Origin: an uncultured Bryobacteraceae bacterium
GTDB lineage: Bacteria; Acidobacteriota; Terriglobia; Bryobacterales; Bryobacteraceae
NCBI GenBank assembly: GCA_938027685.1
Contig: CALJAM010000011.1
Location: forward strand, 1-64,000
Direction: 5' to 3'
DNA length: 64,000 nt
The notes under the pieces were generated by a model. It was not told the origin of the DNA, did no database searches, and saw only the letters and a program-made list of their open reading frames with translations. Shown here piece by piece: positions 76 through 9,081 of the stretch. The number at the start of each line of letters is the position of its first letter. Within the stretch, counting starts at the first letter, position 1. The position numbers were made by a program, and so were the translations under genes.

Positions 76-3054
76 TCAGCTCGCCGGAGTGAAGACATAC
101 CTCCGCGCGCCGCTCACAGGCTTGAACTCGAGCCGGCCCGCCCGCAATGTCTTTGTCGCGACGGGCCCCAGCAGCCTCCCCTCCGGATCGTAAGCCAGCA
201 CGGCCCCCGCAGGCGCCTCGAAAGCAATGCGATCGTTGCCGTGAATGTCAATCAGCTCGACCACTCCGCCCGGCCGGTCCCTGCGCGCCACCCCGCCGGC
301 CGCACCCACCCGGCCGTACTCGGTCCAACGGCCCCTGCCATCCAGGTACTCGTACTCGGCTGCCCGGACGTAATCGACGCGCCGGCCGTTCAACTCCGCC
401 GAGAACTCGAGCAGCCCGGCGGACTCGTTCCACGCAACCCAGCCCGCCGGCGGTAGCCGGAAACTCTCGCCTCCCTCGATGCGCACCGTCCAGATTCCCT
501 CCGTCCCCCGGTTCACCCACACGTGGGTCCCGTTTTCGTACTCGATGTGAATCCGGCCCCCGGCGATGGCGCCGGTTGCATGGGCCCGGCTCGGATCGAG
601 CAGTCGGTCGCCCGGGCCCGCGTACTCGATCCGCCGCGGACGCACGAAGGCGTACTGCTGCTGGAGCTGCTGAAGCATGTAGTATGAACGCGCCATCGCT
701 TCCACCCCGAAAGGATCGTCCAACCCCCAGTCAGTCACCAGCCAGCCGAGATTGCCATAGGCGATGCTGGTCGCCAGAAATAGGTCCACGTGGTGGCGCC
801 GGCGCGAGGATTCTTTCCATTTAGGATCGAGCCGGTCTAGGTAATAGTGCGTGTAACCCATTCCGTAGCTGGCCTCCAGAGGGTGGATCTTGTATAGCTT
901 GAACACGGGATCGGGAGGGTGCGTGAGCAGGTTTACGTCCGTGTAAACCCAGCCGTAGCTTCCCGATTCCAGTCCCGCGTACATCCATTGATAAGTGGCC
1001 TCCGACTGGGTAGGTCCGTAAATGCGCTGGTCGTTGAGAAGAAGCTGACCGTAAGCGTAAAAAGTCGCCGCGAAGGTTCCTGCGCCGGGCACGCGCGCGT
1101 CGTAGTCGCAGTAACGCCACGGAGCTACCGCAGTGTGCACGTCGGTGTAGGACATGCGCACGCCGAATTTTTCCTTGATCCTCGGTGCATAGTATTCATC
1201 CATCTCCACGGCCTTGGCCGGCTTGAGCGCGTAGTTGCGCGGCCAGGCACGCCGCCACTCCCCCTCCGGAGTGCGTTGTACGAAGTCCGGGTTCCAGTTG
1301 GTGTTCGTCGGGGAGAAATCCGTGTAATTGGTGTAAACGCCCTGAAGCCAGCCCAGGCTGTGCTGCGCGCGGATATACCAGGCGAGCATGGCGTCGCCGC
1401 CCTTCTGCGGGGCGGCGCGCAGGCGCATCGTAAAGCTGTCGCCTTCGTCACGCCACGTCACCTCATGGCTGTGCTGCATGATTTTCTCCAGCCCGTACGA
1501 GCGTATGCGGCGGCAGCGCTCGTGGTCCGCCCGGAAGCTGCGCGGTTCGGTCACCGTCCAGATCACCTGCTTGCCCTCCTGCTGACGAAGCGACGGCGGA
1601 TTGGCGATGGTGGGCAATGTTTCTTCGTAGCGCGGCGAGACGGTCACGAAGATGCGCTCGTAAAGGTTGTTGCGCAAGCCGTCGGTCTTCGCTATGTAGC
1701 GCAGGCCGCCGTTGATCTCCGCCCAATCGGTCCCCGTCTTCGGTTGTGCCGCGAAGTAGGGTTCCGAGGCGTTGGATCGGTACCAATCGAACCAGACCGA
1801 GACGAAGACGGGGCGCTCGGGCGGGCCGCCCAGCGCTACGCGCGGATTCGCGTTGCCGTAGGTGAGGTACGGGATCGTGATCAGGCGCGGGCTGCTGAGG
1901 CCCGCCACGCGGCCGAAGCTCACTTCCACGGCCTCGCCGCCGTCGCACCAGACGTCGACCACCAGCGACTTCTGCCACAGTCGCAGGTTGTATTCCACAA
2001 CTCGCGCGCCGCAGCGGAACCGCGCCTCCACCGTCTCGCCGCTCGAGTTCGCCCACAGCAGCTCGCACTCCGGCAGTCGTCCTTCCGCCGTATCGGCGAA
2101 CCGGACGCCTCCGCCCTCCATAGGGCGAACGGGTGCGCCGCGGTCGAGCGTCGCCGTGATTTCACCCAAATTGCCGGTGCGCGGTTGGTATTCGTAGACC
2201 AGGCGCGCGTCGCGCCCTTCGTATACGAACTCGAATGCCCCGCGCCGGTGCTGCCGTACCTGATTCCGGTACCGGCTTTCGAAGTTCTCGGGAAGAATGG
2301 TCTCTTCTCGCGTGGGGAACGGGAGTTTGCCCGCCCCCACGTTCAGGCCCGCGATCTGCCCGCGGAAGGGCAGCAGGTTTCTCTGGGGCTGCGGCTTGAA
2401 CTCGAGCGGCGGCAGCTCCTCGGTGAAGAACGCCAGCGAATCGCAATAAAAGTAGCGCGGCTCCGTATGGCGGATCCGCGATATCTCCAGTCCGCTGAAG
2501 GCAGCCGGCCATACGATTTGTTCCAGCGTCTGCCTCGGCACGCGCCGATGAATCAGCCACCACTGCTTCCAGTTGATCCGTGTGAGTTGGATCGGAAACT
2601 CGCGCCCGCGCGCATCGGCCACCAGCACCGACACTTCCGCCGGCGGCGTAGTTTCATCCCGCACCCACTCCCAGCGGTTGCCGTAGCCCCAGAGCTCGAT
2701 TGAATCGAATCGCTCGGGAATGGCGATCGGTTTCGGAGGCCGCGCTACAATGCGGCCGCCTGAAGGCGTGCCCGAGTACCAAAAGCGCGCCACGTACATT
2801 CCCCACATCTGTTGCTCCCGGCTTCGACGCAGCTCCCCGACGGCGCCGTCGTGTAACTCCAGCGTCCAACCGGCCAGATCCTCGAAGTCGACTAGAGTCT
2901 TGGGATGCTCCTGCCGGTCGACCCATGTCATCTCGTAGGGCTGCTGGCCTACCTGTTGCCACGGTTCGATCTCGTTGATGGCGGGAACCGTTTTTTCGGC
3001 CGCCCACGCGGCGGCAAGGGCCATGAGGAATCCGGCAACGGGAGTGATGCCCAT
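76..3054 (-). CDS. Secreted protein, putative glycoside hydrolase-like
   Basis: A 992-residue protein. I start it at the ATG at 3054 because it opens with a clear signal peptide (MGITPVAGFLMALAAAWA, then AEK); the open frame runs further upstream to 3438 but that part overlaps the divergent neighbour and has no signal. The body is rich in Trp and Tyr, with a beta-rich N-terminal half and a second half carrying motifs such as YTDVHTAVAPW and WVYTDVNLLTHPPDP, which look like barrel strands of a glycosidase-type catalytic domain; the C-terminus looks like a beta domain. I cannot assign a family with certainty. It lies next to an oligogalacturonate-lyase-like gene, so a role in plant polysaccharide breakdown outside the cytoplasm is an inference from context. 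Confidence 0.8.
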   Translation of the reverse strand: MGITPVAGFLMALAAAWAAEKTVPAINEIEPWQQVGQQPYEMTWVDRQEHPKTLVDFEDLAGWTLELHDGAVGELRRSREQQMWGMYVARFWYSGTPSGGRIVARPPKPIAIPERFDSIELWGYGNRWEWVRDETTPPAEVSVLVADARGREFPIQLTRINWKQWWLIHRRVPRQTLEQIVWPAAFSGLEISRIRHTEPRYFYCDSLAFFTEELPPLEFKPQPQRNLLPFRGQIAGLNVGAGKLPFPTREETILPENFESRYRNQVRQHRRGAFEFVYEGRDARLVYEYQPRTGNLGEITATLDRGAPVRPMEGGGVRFADTAEGRLPECELLWANSSGETVEARFRCGARVVEYNLRLWQKSLVVDVWCDGGEAVEVSFGRVAGLSSPRLITIPYLTYGNANPRVALGGPPERPVFVSVWFDWYRSNASEPYFAAQPKTGTDWAEINGGLRYIAKTDGLRNNLYERIFVTVSPRYEETLPTIANPPSLRQQEGKQVIWTVTEPRSFRADHERCRRIRSYGLEKIMQHSHEVTWRDEGDSFTMRLRAAPQKGGDAMLAWYIRAQHSLGWLQGVYTNYTDFSPTNTNWNPDFVQRTPEGEWRRAWPRNYALKPAKAVEMDEYYAPRIKEKFGVRMSYTDVHTAVAPWRYCDYDARVPGAGTFAATFYAYGQLLLNDQRIYGPTQSEATYQWMYAGLESGSYGWVYTDVNLLTHPPDPVFKLYKIHPLEASYGMGYTHYYLDRLDPKWKESSRRRHHVDLFLATSIAYGNLGWLVTDWGLDDPFGVEAMARSYYMLQQLQQQYAFVRPRRIEYAGPGDRLLDPSRAHATGAIAGGRIHIEYENGTHVWVNRGTEGIWTVRIEGGESFRLPPAGWVAWNESAGLLEFSAELNGRRVDYVRAAEYEYLDGRGRWTEYGRVGAAGGVARRDRPGGVVELIDIHGNDRIAFEAPAGAVLAYDPEGRLLGPVATKTLRAGRLEFKPVSGARRYVFTPAS

Positions 3055-3126
3055 GGGTTTCTCCGATCCTGGCCATATTAGCCGAGTCAAGAGTTGCCCG
3101 ATAATAAAGGGCAATCGGAAAGGGAC

Positions 3127-4143
3127 ATGCCGCTCGTAAACTGCAAAGCGATTTTGCTGGCGATCCTTTCTGCCGGCCGGTTGCAGGATCAGCCGCAGAT
3201 GATTTGGGAAGGCCAGGTCGACGGCGTGAGCATCCTGCGCATCCGGGGCAACCAGATCGACATCGAGGAAGTGCGCGGCCTGCCGGTCCAGCGGCAACGG
3301 GCGCGGTTTTTCGAACGACTGCCCGAGCGCCGCCAGATCGTGCGCCTGGAGGTGGTCGAGGGTCGCGGTCGCGTCCGCGTCCTCGAACAACCCCGCGCCG
3401 ACAACAATTACACCCTCAGCGTGGAGATCGACGATCACCAGAGCGGCAGCTCCTGGTACTCACTGGCTTTCTACTGGGCCGGCGGACGTGACAGCTGGCT
3501 GGGCCCGCCACTCAGCCAGGAAGGCGCCGGCGAGCGTCTGTGGTGGAGCGGGCGCGTGGACGGCGAGGCAGTGGTTCACTGCCGCCGTGACTTCTGCGAA
3601 GCCGAAACCACTCAGGGCGCTCCCGTCACCCGGGATCGTTTCCGCTTCACGCGTCCCCTGCCGGCCCGGCGTGTCCTGGTGAGTCTGGAAGAAAAGCAAG
3701 GCCGCGGCGAAGTGCGGCTGCTCGAGCAGCCCCGCGAGGAGAACGAGTTCACCGCGCGCGTTCTGATCCGCGACCCGCAGCGTGGCGCAGGCGACTACTC
3801 CTTTGTCCTGGTTTGGGCGCCTCCTGCCCGCGGCGAATCGCCGATCGCGCGGCGTGGCATGATCTGGCGGGGAGCTGTGGACGGCACGGTCCGCGTTACG
3901 CTCCAGGGTTCGCAGGCCTGGGCCGAGGTGATCAGCGGCGCGCCCGTCGAGGACGAGCAGGCCGAGTTCATTCGGCCCCTGCCCGCCCGCAACCTGCCGG
4001 ACGCCACGGTGCGCAAGCTGCGCGGCCGCGGCCGGGTCCAGATCCTTGAGTACCCCTCCGCTCGCAACGGCTACCGGCTTGTCTTCCAGATTGAAGACCC
4101 CAAAGCCGGGTCGGACCGTTACCAAGTCGAAGTGAGCTGGTAG
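3127..4143 (+). CDS. Secreted triple-repeat protein of unknown function
   Basis: A 338-residue protein, started at the ATG at 3127, where a short hydrophobic leader (LVNCKAILLAILSAG) follows and a GGAAAGGGA stretch precedes. After the leader the whole protein is three copies of a module of about 93 residues at 3199-3477, 3541-3816 and 3859-4140. Each copy opens with W-x-G-x-VDG, has a G-x-PV turn, an F-x-R-x-LP-x-R segment, then GRG-x-V-x-x-LE-x-P, and ends on a Trp about 30 residues later. The pattern suggests three tandem beta domains. I do not recognise the family. It is divergent from the large secreted protein on the other strand, with about 70 bases between the two starts. An upstream start at 3094 is possible but would extend the leader without a purpose. 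Confidence 0.8.
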   Translation: MPLVNCKAILLAILSAGRLQDQPQMIWEGQVDGVSILRIRGNQIDIEEVRGLPVQRQRARFFERLPERRQIVRLEVVEGRGRVRVLEQPRADNNYTLSVEIDDHQSGSSWYSLAFYWAGGRDSWLGPPLSQEGAGERLWWSGRVDGEAVVHCRRDFCEAETTQGAPVTRDRFRFTRPLPARRVLVSLEEKQGRGEVRLLEQPREENEFTARVLIRDPQRGAGDYSFVLVWAPPARGESPIARRGMIWRGAVDGTVRVTLQGSQAWAEVISGAPVEDEQAEFIRPLPARNLPDATVRKLRGRGRVQILEYPSARNGYRLVFQIEDPKAGSDRYQVEVSW

Positions 4144-4232: not shown

Positions 4233-5360
4233 TCATAGCGGAACCACGTAAACCTGCGGAACTCCCGTGCGGTCCGAGGTGAAGGCTACGTACTTGCCGC
4301 TCCGGCTGATCGAAGGGTGCACGTGCGCTTGCCGCGCGTGACCGCCGGTGACCGAGGAATCCGGCCAGCACAGGAGCTCGCACCACCCCGTTTCGAGGTC
4401 GATGTAAACGAGAGGATTGTCACCCGGCTTCTGGACGTCGGATACGATGAAACGCCCGTCGGGCGAGATCATCGAATGCCCGAGCATCAGGTTCTCCGAG
4501 GCGAAGTGCGTGCGCCGGTCCGTACCGTCCCTCTTCATCGAGCAGATCGAGGTCGGCACCCAGCCGGGCACTTTCTTCTTGTGGAAATAGAAACGTTCGC
4601 CCGTTGCGTCCCAGTATTCATGAGTAGCGCGCCAACCATAAGGCATGATGAGAAAGGGACGCACGCTGCCGGTTCTAAGGTCGACGATCATCGTGCGCGC
4701 GCGGCGCTCCATCGGCAGGCTCATGTCGTTCTGCTCGTCCGGCGTCCGCACGAAAGTCACCAGATAGGGATCGCTCGGGCAGACGAGCAGGTGTCCGCCC
4801 GTTCCTCCCGGTATGCGCGCGCTTTCCTCGAGCCGCCCGGCGCGGAGGTTCACGCGGCCGATGAAGGTTTCCCCGGCGATCGTGTAGCTGACGGGCGTGT
4901 ACACGCCGTCGCGCGAGAAGGTACGGCCCGCGGCAAAGCCTCCCGCACCCGGCACGGCTTCAGCCAGGTCGATGATGAGTCGTCGCTTGCCGCTCTCCAC
5001 CCCCGTGGCCCACAGCCGGCTTCCGTCGAGATAGACGACCTCTCCGGCGCCCGGCGGGATCGAAAAAGACATGTTGGCCAAATCCCGCGCCTCGGTCAGT
5101 TGCCGACTCAGCCCGGTGGCCAGCTCGACGGCATAAAGCTGCCAGGCGCCGCTCCGGTTCGAACAGTAGACCAAGAAGCGGTCGTCATCGGTAAAAGGCT
5201 GGGCCTCGAAGTAGCAGCTGTGGCTGATCGCATCGCCTTCGGTAATCTGCCAGACCTCGCGTTCCGTGCGGCGGTCGCGCTCTCGTCGGATCGAGGCGCG
5301 GCCTGCACCAGGCCTGAGGCAGAGCAGTGCAGAGACGAATGAGCGCCGCGAAATCTTCAT
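4233..5360 (-). CDS. Oligogalacturonate lyase-like beta-propeller protein (Tat signal)
   Basis: A 375-residue protein started at the ATG at 5360, giving the twin-arginine leader MKISRRSFVSALL. The body is a propeller of WD40/TolB-like blades (DDRFLVYCSNRSGAWQLY; YVAFTSDRTGVPQVYVVPL at the C-terminus). The late segment GHARQAHVHPSIS has the closely spaced Gln and His residues that resemble the metal-site region of PL22 oligogalacturonate lyases, and the length fits that family. Such enzymes cleave unsaturated digalacturonate in pectin breakdown. The location here would be exported, unlike classical cytoplasmic Ogl. The mannonate dehydratase further upstream on the same strand supports a uronate role. 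A non-catalytic TolB-like propeller remains possible. Confidence 0.75.
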   Translation of the reverse strand: MKISRRSFVSALLCLRPGAGRASIRRERDRRTEREVWQITEGDAISHSCYFEAQPFTDDDRFLVYCSNRSGAWQLYAVELATGLSRQLTEARDLANMSFSIPPGAGEVVYLDGSRLWATGVESGKRRLIIDLAEAVPGAGGFAAGRTFSRDGVYTPVSYTIAGETFIGRVNLRAGRLEESARIPGGTGGHLLVCPSDPYLVTFVRTPDEQNDMSLPMERRARTMIVDLRTGSVRPFLIMPYGWRATHEYWDATGERFYFHKKKVPGWVPTSICSMKRDGTDRRTHFASENLMLGHSMISPDGRFIVSDVQKPGDNPLVYIDLETGWCELLCWPDSSVTGGHARQAHVHPSISRSGKYVAFTSDRTGVPQVYVVPL

Positions 5361-5545
5361 CGACGTACCTTCCAATCGCACTCGCCGGCCTGGAGCGCCA
5401 TCCAACTGGGCCCGTCACCCCGCGGACGCTGACCGACTGAGCTCCCGCTCCACCCTCTGGACCGCCCCCGCATTCAAGCACTCTTCGCTCTCCATCTTGC
5501 GCAAACCGGCTTGCTACGCCATCAGGCGCTACCGATCACTCGCGC

Positions 5546-7968: not shown

Positions 7969-9081
7969 TCAGCCCTCCGAGTAAACCATCTGAATCAGTG
8001 CCTGGATGTATCCGAAGGCGTAGGCGAAGGCTTGGCGCTGACCCTCGTCCCCAGGGATTCTCGGGACGTGATCCGGCATGATCATGCCGTCGTAGCCCAC
8101 CTCTTTGTAAACGCGGATGGCGCGGATCATATCCACGTCCCCGTCGTCGGGGAACGTTTCCTGAAAGTTCAGGAAACCGCCGCGGATGTTTCGGAAGTGC
8201 ACGTTGAAGATCTTCTTGCGCTGCCCGAAGTACCGGATGACGTCGAAGATCTCGCGGCCCGGGTCCGTGAGCATTTCGGCGACCGTTCCCTGGCAGAAGT
8301 TCAAACCGTGGTAGGCACTGGGGACGATCTCGATGAACCGCTTCAAGCCCTCGACGCTCCCCAGCACGCGGTGCACCCCGCGAAACCCTTTCTCGGCAGG
8401 CATGGGCGGATCGTGCGGGTGACAGGCCATGCGGACCTTGTATTCTTCCGCCACGGGGATGACCCGCTTGAGAAAGTACGTGATGCGCTCCCACATCTCA
8501 TCCGCGCTGACCGGCCCCGCTTCGGTGAGCGGAGGCTCCTGCCGCGCCTGCTCGTAGACGAACGTGCTGTAGAGAGCGCCGCCCCGGCCCCGCGTCGGTG
8601 CTGTGCGGACCACCCCTAGGATCGTGAGATTGTACTTGAGGGCCGGGATCCCCGCACGGGCGGCATTGCGGATCATCTGACAGATCGCGTCTATCTCCCG
8701 ATCGCGCTCCGGACTCTTGCCCAGCATGATGTTGGGGTGCTCAGCCCGCGTGATGTAGACCGAGCTCAGCGGCAACGGAACCATCTCCAGCTTGATCCCG
8801 AACGATTCCACGCGCTCGCGCAGTCGTAGCAGCCCTTCCACCGACCAGGCCTCGTCGAGCTTGCGGGAAGGCAATGCGCTGCAAATGTGGTGCACGCCCA
8901 GCGCGGCCAGCGTGCGTAGGATATCGTCCGTCGAGCCGTGCTGCGTGCCCGCTTTCATGCGTGGCGCGGCGGCCGCGCCGCTGGGACGCTGCGGGGGACG
9001 GCCCGCCAGAGCCAAGGCGGCTTCAGCCCGCCTTTCAGCCAGACTCACGGCGGCGGCTAGGAAGCTTCGGCGTCGCATCAA
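7969..9081 (-). CDS. uxuA: D-mannonate dehydratase family protein with Tat signal
   Basis: A 370-residue protein. The C-terminal two thirds match UxuA-type mannonate dehydratases: [37 protein letters not shown] and [13 protein letters not shown] carry the Cys, His and Asp residues that bind the metal in this family. Mannonate dehydratase converts D-mannonate to 2-keto-3-deoxy-gluconate in glucuronate breakdown. The N-terminus [15 protein letters not shown] is a twin-arginine leader, which is unusual for a classical cytoplasmic UxuA, so this may be an exported relative with a different substrate. The start could be the second ATG at 9078. It is the first gene of a run with the next two minus-strand genes. 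Confidence 0.85.

Follow-up and report, generated by a model that had tools for sequence, protein, structure and literature searches.

What does a small, apparently exported protein do when nearly all of it consists of three copies of one unfamiliar module? The question is raised by a gene near the start of the window, by which we mean the whole stretch of 64,000 nucleotides analysed here, from an uncultured member of the Bryobacteraceae. Acidobacteriota rank with the most abundant bacteria of soils, and many of the proteins that they secrete lack annotation. The gene and its immediate surroundings are laid out as follows.

76..3054, minus strand: divergent large secreted protein, about 992 aa from the ATG at 3054, of an unnamed family.
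3055..3126, no strand: short intergenic region from which the triple-module gene and its large neighbour diverge, from the sequence.
3127-4140, plus strand: triple-module gene, 338 aa, a hydrophobic N-terminus followed by three modules of 91-92 residues.
3127..3198, plus strand: N-terminal hydrophobic segment (putative signal peptide) and short lead-in, from hydropathy.
3205..3477, plus strand: module 1, residues 27-117, from the HMM envelope, the AlphaFold2 model and a tree clade of its own.
3478..3543, plus strand: linker of 22 residues between modules 1 and 2.
3544..3816, plus strand: module 2, residues 140-230, from the HMM envelope and a tree clade of its own.
3580..3597, plus strand: Cys pair of module 2, C152 and C157, a candidate disulphide, from the conserved Cys and the strands of the module 1 model.
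3817..3864, plus strand: linker of 16 residues between modules 2 and 3.
3865..4140, plus strand: module 3, residues 247-338, from the HMM envelope, the C-terminal letters and a tree clade of its own.

ATG 3127 is the most likely start codon; TTG 3094 is open as well. The sequence-only reading had placed the repeat at 3199-4140, and the repeat itself stands, but that span begins at residue 25 and not at the start of the gene. Upstream of module 1 the hydropathy of the window protein peaks at 2.26 (best 12-residue stretch), and comparable hydrophobic N-terminal segments, with values of 1.92-2.79, are present in all 17 of the other multi-module loci. Our reference for codon comparison was the orthologue from Bryobacteraceae bacterium SKYB110 (locus L038), from which the window gene differs at 44, 22 and 139 sites in codon positions 1, 2 and 3, giving a dN of 0.107 and a dS of 1.04 (NG86), the latter near saturation. 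Judged by its codons, the frame is a conserved protein-coding gene under purifying selection, and the codon-position test indicates that the long antisense ORFs of the region are frame shadows.

The three modules are clearly related to each other, as had been proposed. Pairwise BLASTP over 92-94 columns gives identities of 45.7% (modules 1 and 2), 38.3% (1 and 3) and 35.9% (2 and 3), and the alignment scores of the pairs lie 24-37 standard deviations over those of shuffled sequences (1000 shuffles each). The core motif read earlier from the letters falls entirely within the columns invariant in all three modules, namely W-x-G-x-V-D-G, G-x-P-V, L-P-x-R, G-R-G-x-V-x-x-L-E-x-P and a closing W; further invariant columns hold N, I-x-D, G and Y. 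The closing Trp of module 3 is the final residue of the protein.

The module has no name in the libraries that we searched. The whole window protein matched no Pfam-A family, no NCBIfam family and no PDB sequence at E up to 1, and its modules, scanned singly against Pfam-A, gave one stray row below the cut-off (FitA-like RHH, E 0.11). A wider set of 56 modules, scanned singly against Pfam, NCBIfam and PHROGs, brought up scattered families only, at E 0.018-0.1, and the profile built from the set reached a best E of 0.076 against PDB sequences. None of the stray library rows, whether from the window protein or from the 56 modules, fits more than one or two members, and none is stronger than E 0.018. 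The earlier claim of an unnamed family thus agrees with searches of Pfam-A, NCBIfam, PHROGs and PDB sequences that returned nothing beyond chance-level rows, and module-by-module scanning of both sets matched no known domain. Plasmids held no module match at E up to 1, viral contigs no relative of the module, and phages two weak rows only (best E 0.06). The part of the literature that our search reached offered no published description of the module, which is a weak negative. The module is a domain family absent from the libraries searched, yet of a familiar general kind, that of secreted, repeated beta modules.

Within the phylum, to whose genomes the profile searches extended, the module family is common and no local oddity. 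A profile of the three window modules found it in 48 of 61 sampled genomes of the bacterial family, and the 56-module profile in at least 40 of 151 genomes of the class and at least 38 of 297 of the phylum, both being lower bounds (at most 34 and 17 candidates, respectively, were scored per genome). A scan of genome contigs by conserved peptides yielded one locus. At a strict threshold of E 1e-20, 25 of 237 family genomes match; 13 of these 25 have three rows in one frame, and G027 gains its third row from the 61-genome search. With one genome (G619) counted as a partial triple on account of two modules on a 3.9-kb contig, the tally for the family is 14 complete triple proteins, one partial and two two-module relatives (G002, G028). 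Among 133 distinct modules the most constant positions are D6 (93%), P40 (94%), the GRG turn (92, 95 and 91%), P63 (99%) and N67 (95%), followed in the C-terminal part by D77 (94%), G81 (95%), Y85 (93%) and W91 (98%). The family core, W-x-G-x-V-D-G ... L-P ... G-R-G ... P-x3-N ... D ... G ... Y ... W, is present in all three window modules.

For module 1, AlphaFold2 predicts from six sequences a domain of six strands and a short helical turn, at a pLDDT of 95.3 and a pTM of 0.84. The expectation of a single beta domain is thereby supported for module 1; that the three modules would superpose as one fold follows from their homology only, and the full-length model (pLDDT 52.7, two-sequence alignment) is unusable for their arrangement. 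Foldseek returned no match at E <=0.001 in the PDB or in the viral library. With a structural aligner, the top PDB match for module 1 is the Helix aspersa agglutinin HAA (Z 5.6, 2.5 Å, 69 residues), and next come TkSP, a tailspike, a plant-virus capsid, a GOLD domain, PliG and the ColG collagen-binding domain at Z 4.5-4.7, all in a range (Z under 8) that can reflect a common strand arrangement alone. These matches are weak, and the predicted fold is a beta-sandwich such as many secreted binding proteins have, with no family standing out.

The presence of PliG, a periplasmic lysozyme inhibitor, among these weak neighbours (Z 4.5) raises the question of whether the module inhibits a secreted enzyme, in the manner of PliG or of a protease inhibitor, and one module protein indeed carries an I36 inhibitor/crystallin match. 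We regard this as very improbable: PliG ties in rank with many unrelated beta-sandwiches, and the multi-module loci compared share no conserved linked target enzyme.

How the module is deployed was surveyed in 84 distinct module-bearing ORFs, taken from the best matches of each search and not from a random draw, after removal of 11 loci as repeats or off-target; the ORFs were read stop to stop inside the loci, so that N-termini and some long proteins are cut. Fifty-four carry one copy, 15 two, 10 three and 5 four. The last module coincides exactly with the end of the protein in 34 of the 84 and lies at most 6 residues from it in 58; one protein continues for 15 residues, and 25 for at least 91. 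Such a preference for the C-terminus would suit a sorting or secretion domain whose last strand, which alternates hydrophobic residues and ends in Trp, acts as a signal for export or outer-membrane assembly. This we hold to be unlikely, since the same closing Trp occurs in internal copies, the 25 proteins with long extensions place other sequence after the last module, and there are proteins made of nothing besides a signal and a module. With the window protein searched at E up to 1, no model of the PEP-CTERM (PF07589) type gave a row.

A partner domain scored above the Pfam cut-off in 6 of 30 module proteins scanned, and 24 had no recognisable partner at that level. The partners found are mostly related to the envelope or to glycans: BON (L040, L093), PG_binding_1 (L061, L084), a ricin-type lectin (L088), and beta/gamma-crystallin with peptidase inhibitor I36 (L067). 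A GH67 C-terminus in L026 falls just below the cut-off (26.5 against 27). At the other extreme, some minimal proteins, about 121-123 aa long, have nothing but a hydrophobic start and a single module (L089, L091, L092).

Two further protein types came to light in the survey. One of them, about 600-780 aa long, is marked by the signature ETWFQPK...FDYDGDW...HENDNEG (L005, L017, L020-L025, L027, L075, L094) and carries one or two C-terminal modules; the four proteins that were scanned (L017, L022, L075, L094) had no Pfam match, and the type represents another unnamed secreted family associated with the module. In a group of secreted proteins of about 280 aa (L030, L032-L034, L036, L037) the module instead lies near the N-terminus, after a RRMTRNDVPLGKGQCDIRL-like lead, and a further unnamed domain, of about 140 residues, occupies the C-terminus.

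Divergence between the three positions of the triple protein is ancient; they have remained distinct and are not interchangeable. In a tree of 59 modules over 91 columns, positions 1, 2 and 3 of nine triple proteins each fall on one side of a branch, with supports of 99/97, 99/97 and 98/87. A triple from another family of the phylum (L069) has modules 1 and 2 that group with positions 1 and 2, its third being unplaced. By the same tree, the two-module protein of L014 combines positions 1 and 2 and that of L016 positions 1 and 3, and both look like losses from a triple. The positions also differ in their cysteines: Cys occupies positions 13 and 18 of module 2 in 13 of the 14 complete family triples, and modules 1 and 3 of all 14 are free of Cys. 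The L069 triple (L160) is without the pair. Projected onto the predicted model of module 1, the two positions bracket the turn that links strand 1 to strand 2, which makes a hairpin disulphide C152-C157 in module 2 likely.

This fixed order bears on the possibility that the module is structural, packing against other copies of itself or against proteins of the envelope and serving as spacer, stalk or scaffold, with no glycan ligand and with a reach set by its copy number. Copy numbers from one to four, the bare signal-plus-one-module proteins, the lack of a known binding or catalytic domain in most partners, and strongly conserved turns (GRG, P, N, D, G) that could be purely structural would all fit such a role. 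A plain spacer, however, has no need of fixed and distinct positions, and the single-module proteins have nothing to space. We consider a structural role possible though doubtful.

The genomic neighbourhood offers mixed guidance. Divergent to the triple gene lies the large protein at 76-3054, which the sequence-only reading took to be glycosidase-like; that assignment is unproven, as the protein has no match in Pfam or NCBIfam and no PDB sequence below E 0.19. It is a candidate for an unnamed enzyme family. A homologue is found near 2 of the 17 other multi-module loci, L153 (judged by its length, 45740, to be one contig with L038) and L095 (in which the triple gene is displaced), and L038/L153 and L095 are all from the genus of the window; its absence from such short contigs as L155 (3.9 kb) and L096 (5.4 kb) tells little. 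The proposed divergent pair is therefore real within the genus and, among the 17 loci, confined to it. Because the pairing is limited to one genus and the neighbour lacks a family match, any argument from it is weak.

A different divergent neighbour recurs more widely. In 7 of the 17 other multi-module loci (L099, L100, L102, L156-L159), from three genera (g39, g3, g34), it is a GT2 glycosyltransferase of about 540 aa, identified by Pfam in L099, L100 and L102 and by similarity in all 7. The window's own genome encodes an orthologue on another contig (L161:6940-8517; G000:C14), and the protein is about 71% identical across genera. With the enzyme this well conserved and also found elsewhere in the genome, its adjacency to the triple gene may reflect nothing more than inherited gene order. 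Directly downstream, 5 of the 17 loci (L099, L103, L156, L157, L159) have a small protein of about 140-156 aa. In the window, the triple gene is adjoined at 4233-5366 by an oligogalacturonate-lyase-like/PD40 beta-propeller protein (Pfam PF14583, PF07676).

The displaced copy in L095, from a congener (G010), has a history of its own. A fragment of the 5' end of the triple gene is left beside the large-neighbour site, and between this leftover and the intact triple gene lies an interval of about 5 kb encoding AIPR (abortive-infection-type) and C5 DNA methylase, bounded by 253-base direct repeats that are 88.5% alike (L095:2678-2930 and 7981-8233). The interval resembles a defence island inserted into the triple gene or next to it, with a working 5' end either retained or brought in by the island.

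Taken together, our analysis leads us to propose, tentatively and with a probability of about 0.42, that the module is an extracytoplasmic unit that binds glycans or the envelope. A carbohydrate-binding or adhesion unit, as the sequence-only reading had suggested, is thus possible. The triple protein would be exported through its N-terminal hydrophobic segment and would reside in the periplasm, at the cell surface or outside the cell. Each module may stand alone as a beta-sandwich and bind a polymer of the envelope or of the extracellular space, with a glycan the likeliest ligand; three modules that differ from each other could provide avidity or allow one chain to bridge different sites. In other proteins a single module at the C-terminus would anchor an enzyme or envelope domain to a surface of this type.

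An extracytoplasmic location is suggested by the hydrophobic N-terminus that each of the 18 multi-module proteins examined has, and by the position-specific Cys pair, which fits an oxidising compartment. Also in favour of the proposal are the repeat, the purifying selection and the high-confidence beta fold predicted for module 1, together with the occurrence of the best, if weak, structural neighbours among secreted binding domains (HAA, the TkSP C-domain, ColG and PliG, and a viral H-type lectin model). To these are added the BON, PG_binding_1, ricin-type lectin and crystallin/I36 partners, the near-cut-off GH67 C-terminus, and the GT2 neighbour in 7 of 17 other loci and 3 genera. Against the proposal we count the weakness of the fold matches, the chance-level profile score to H-type lectins described below, the 24 of 30 proteins without a partner, and a GT2 adjacency that may be inherited.

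Carried further, the proposal would make this phylum-wide, unnamed family of extracytoplasmic beta-sandwiches a common surface-polymer recognition kit of the Acidobacteriota, and the triple an asymmetric unit older than the Bryobacteraceae, a single-chain pseudo-trimer that reads the cell's own exopolysaccharide or envelope; in this full form we think it improbable. With the module present in 48 of 61 sampled family genomes, a named model would annotate many hypothetical proteins at once. The module is also a clean, small target for structure determination and for a glycan array, and the fixed, divergent triple is well suited to a stringent test of whether beta modules, three to a chain, work as a unit.

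Among known systems, the closest in structure are the H-type lectins (PF09458; Helix agglutinins, 4q56/2ccv), which bind GalNAc and form a trimer from three chains. Like them, the module is about 100 residues long and predicted to be all-beta, probably a sandwich, with Z 5.6 to 4q56 over the full module length, and a viral H-type lectin model superposes on the module 1 model at TM 0.53/0.50. If the module were a true, divergent relative, three modules in one chain would correspond to the trimer. We judge such kinship quite unlikely. No H_lectin row appeared for the window protein and its three modules at E up to 1, nor for the 56 modules at E up to 0.1; other beta-sandwiches, PPC-like ones included, score within about 1 Z unit of the lectin match; the module occurs in one to four copies per chain, proteins with one, two or four being common; and the full-length model (pLDDT 52.7) is too poor to show a trimer. 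A first profile run gave a co-linear alignment at P 0.074, the register of which was lost on the trimmed alignment. The profile-profile score is at chance, with 28 of 150 block shuffles as high and the reversed alignment at 10.4 against 11.9, for an H-lectin alignment that had just 12 rows, of which one or two were poorly aligned.

The PPC or collagen-binding jelly-rolls (PF04151) resemble what is proposed for the module in being secreted, often C-terminal beta-sandwiches of similar size, and the structures 3afg (TkSP C-domain), 1nqj, 2o8o and 3jqw match module 1 at Z 3.9-4.7. No PF04151 row was found for the window protein, its modules or the 56 modules, and sequence kinship is negligible (hhalign P 0.23, with an automatically cut PPC set that has at least one wrong-frame row). 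The best match among viral models is A0A7D3QNP9 (BFVD), at a Foldseek E of 2.2e-3 and a TM of 0.74 of the module; that protein, however, is unnamed, 1150 aa long and 14% identical to the module. In the way it would work, the module can be compared with carbohydrate-binding modules: like these, it is probably secreted, and it is modular, repeated and appended at the ends of proteins.
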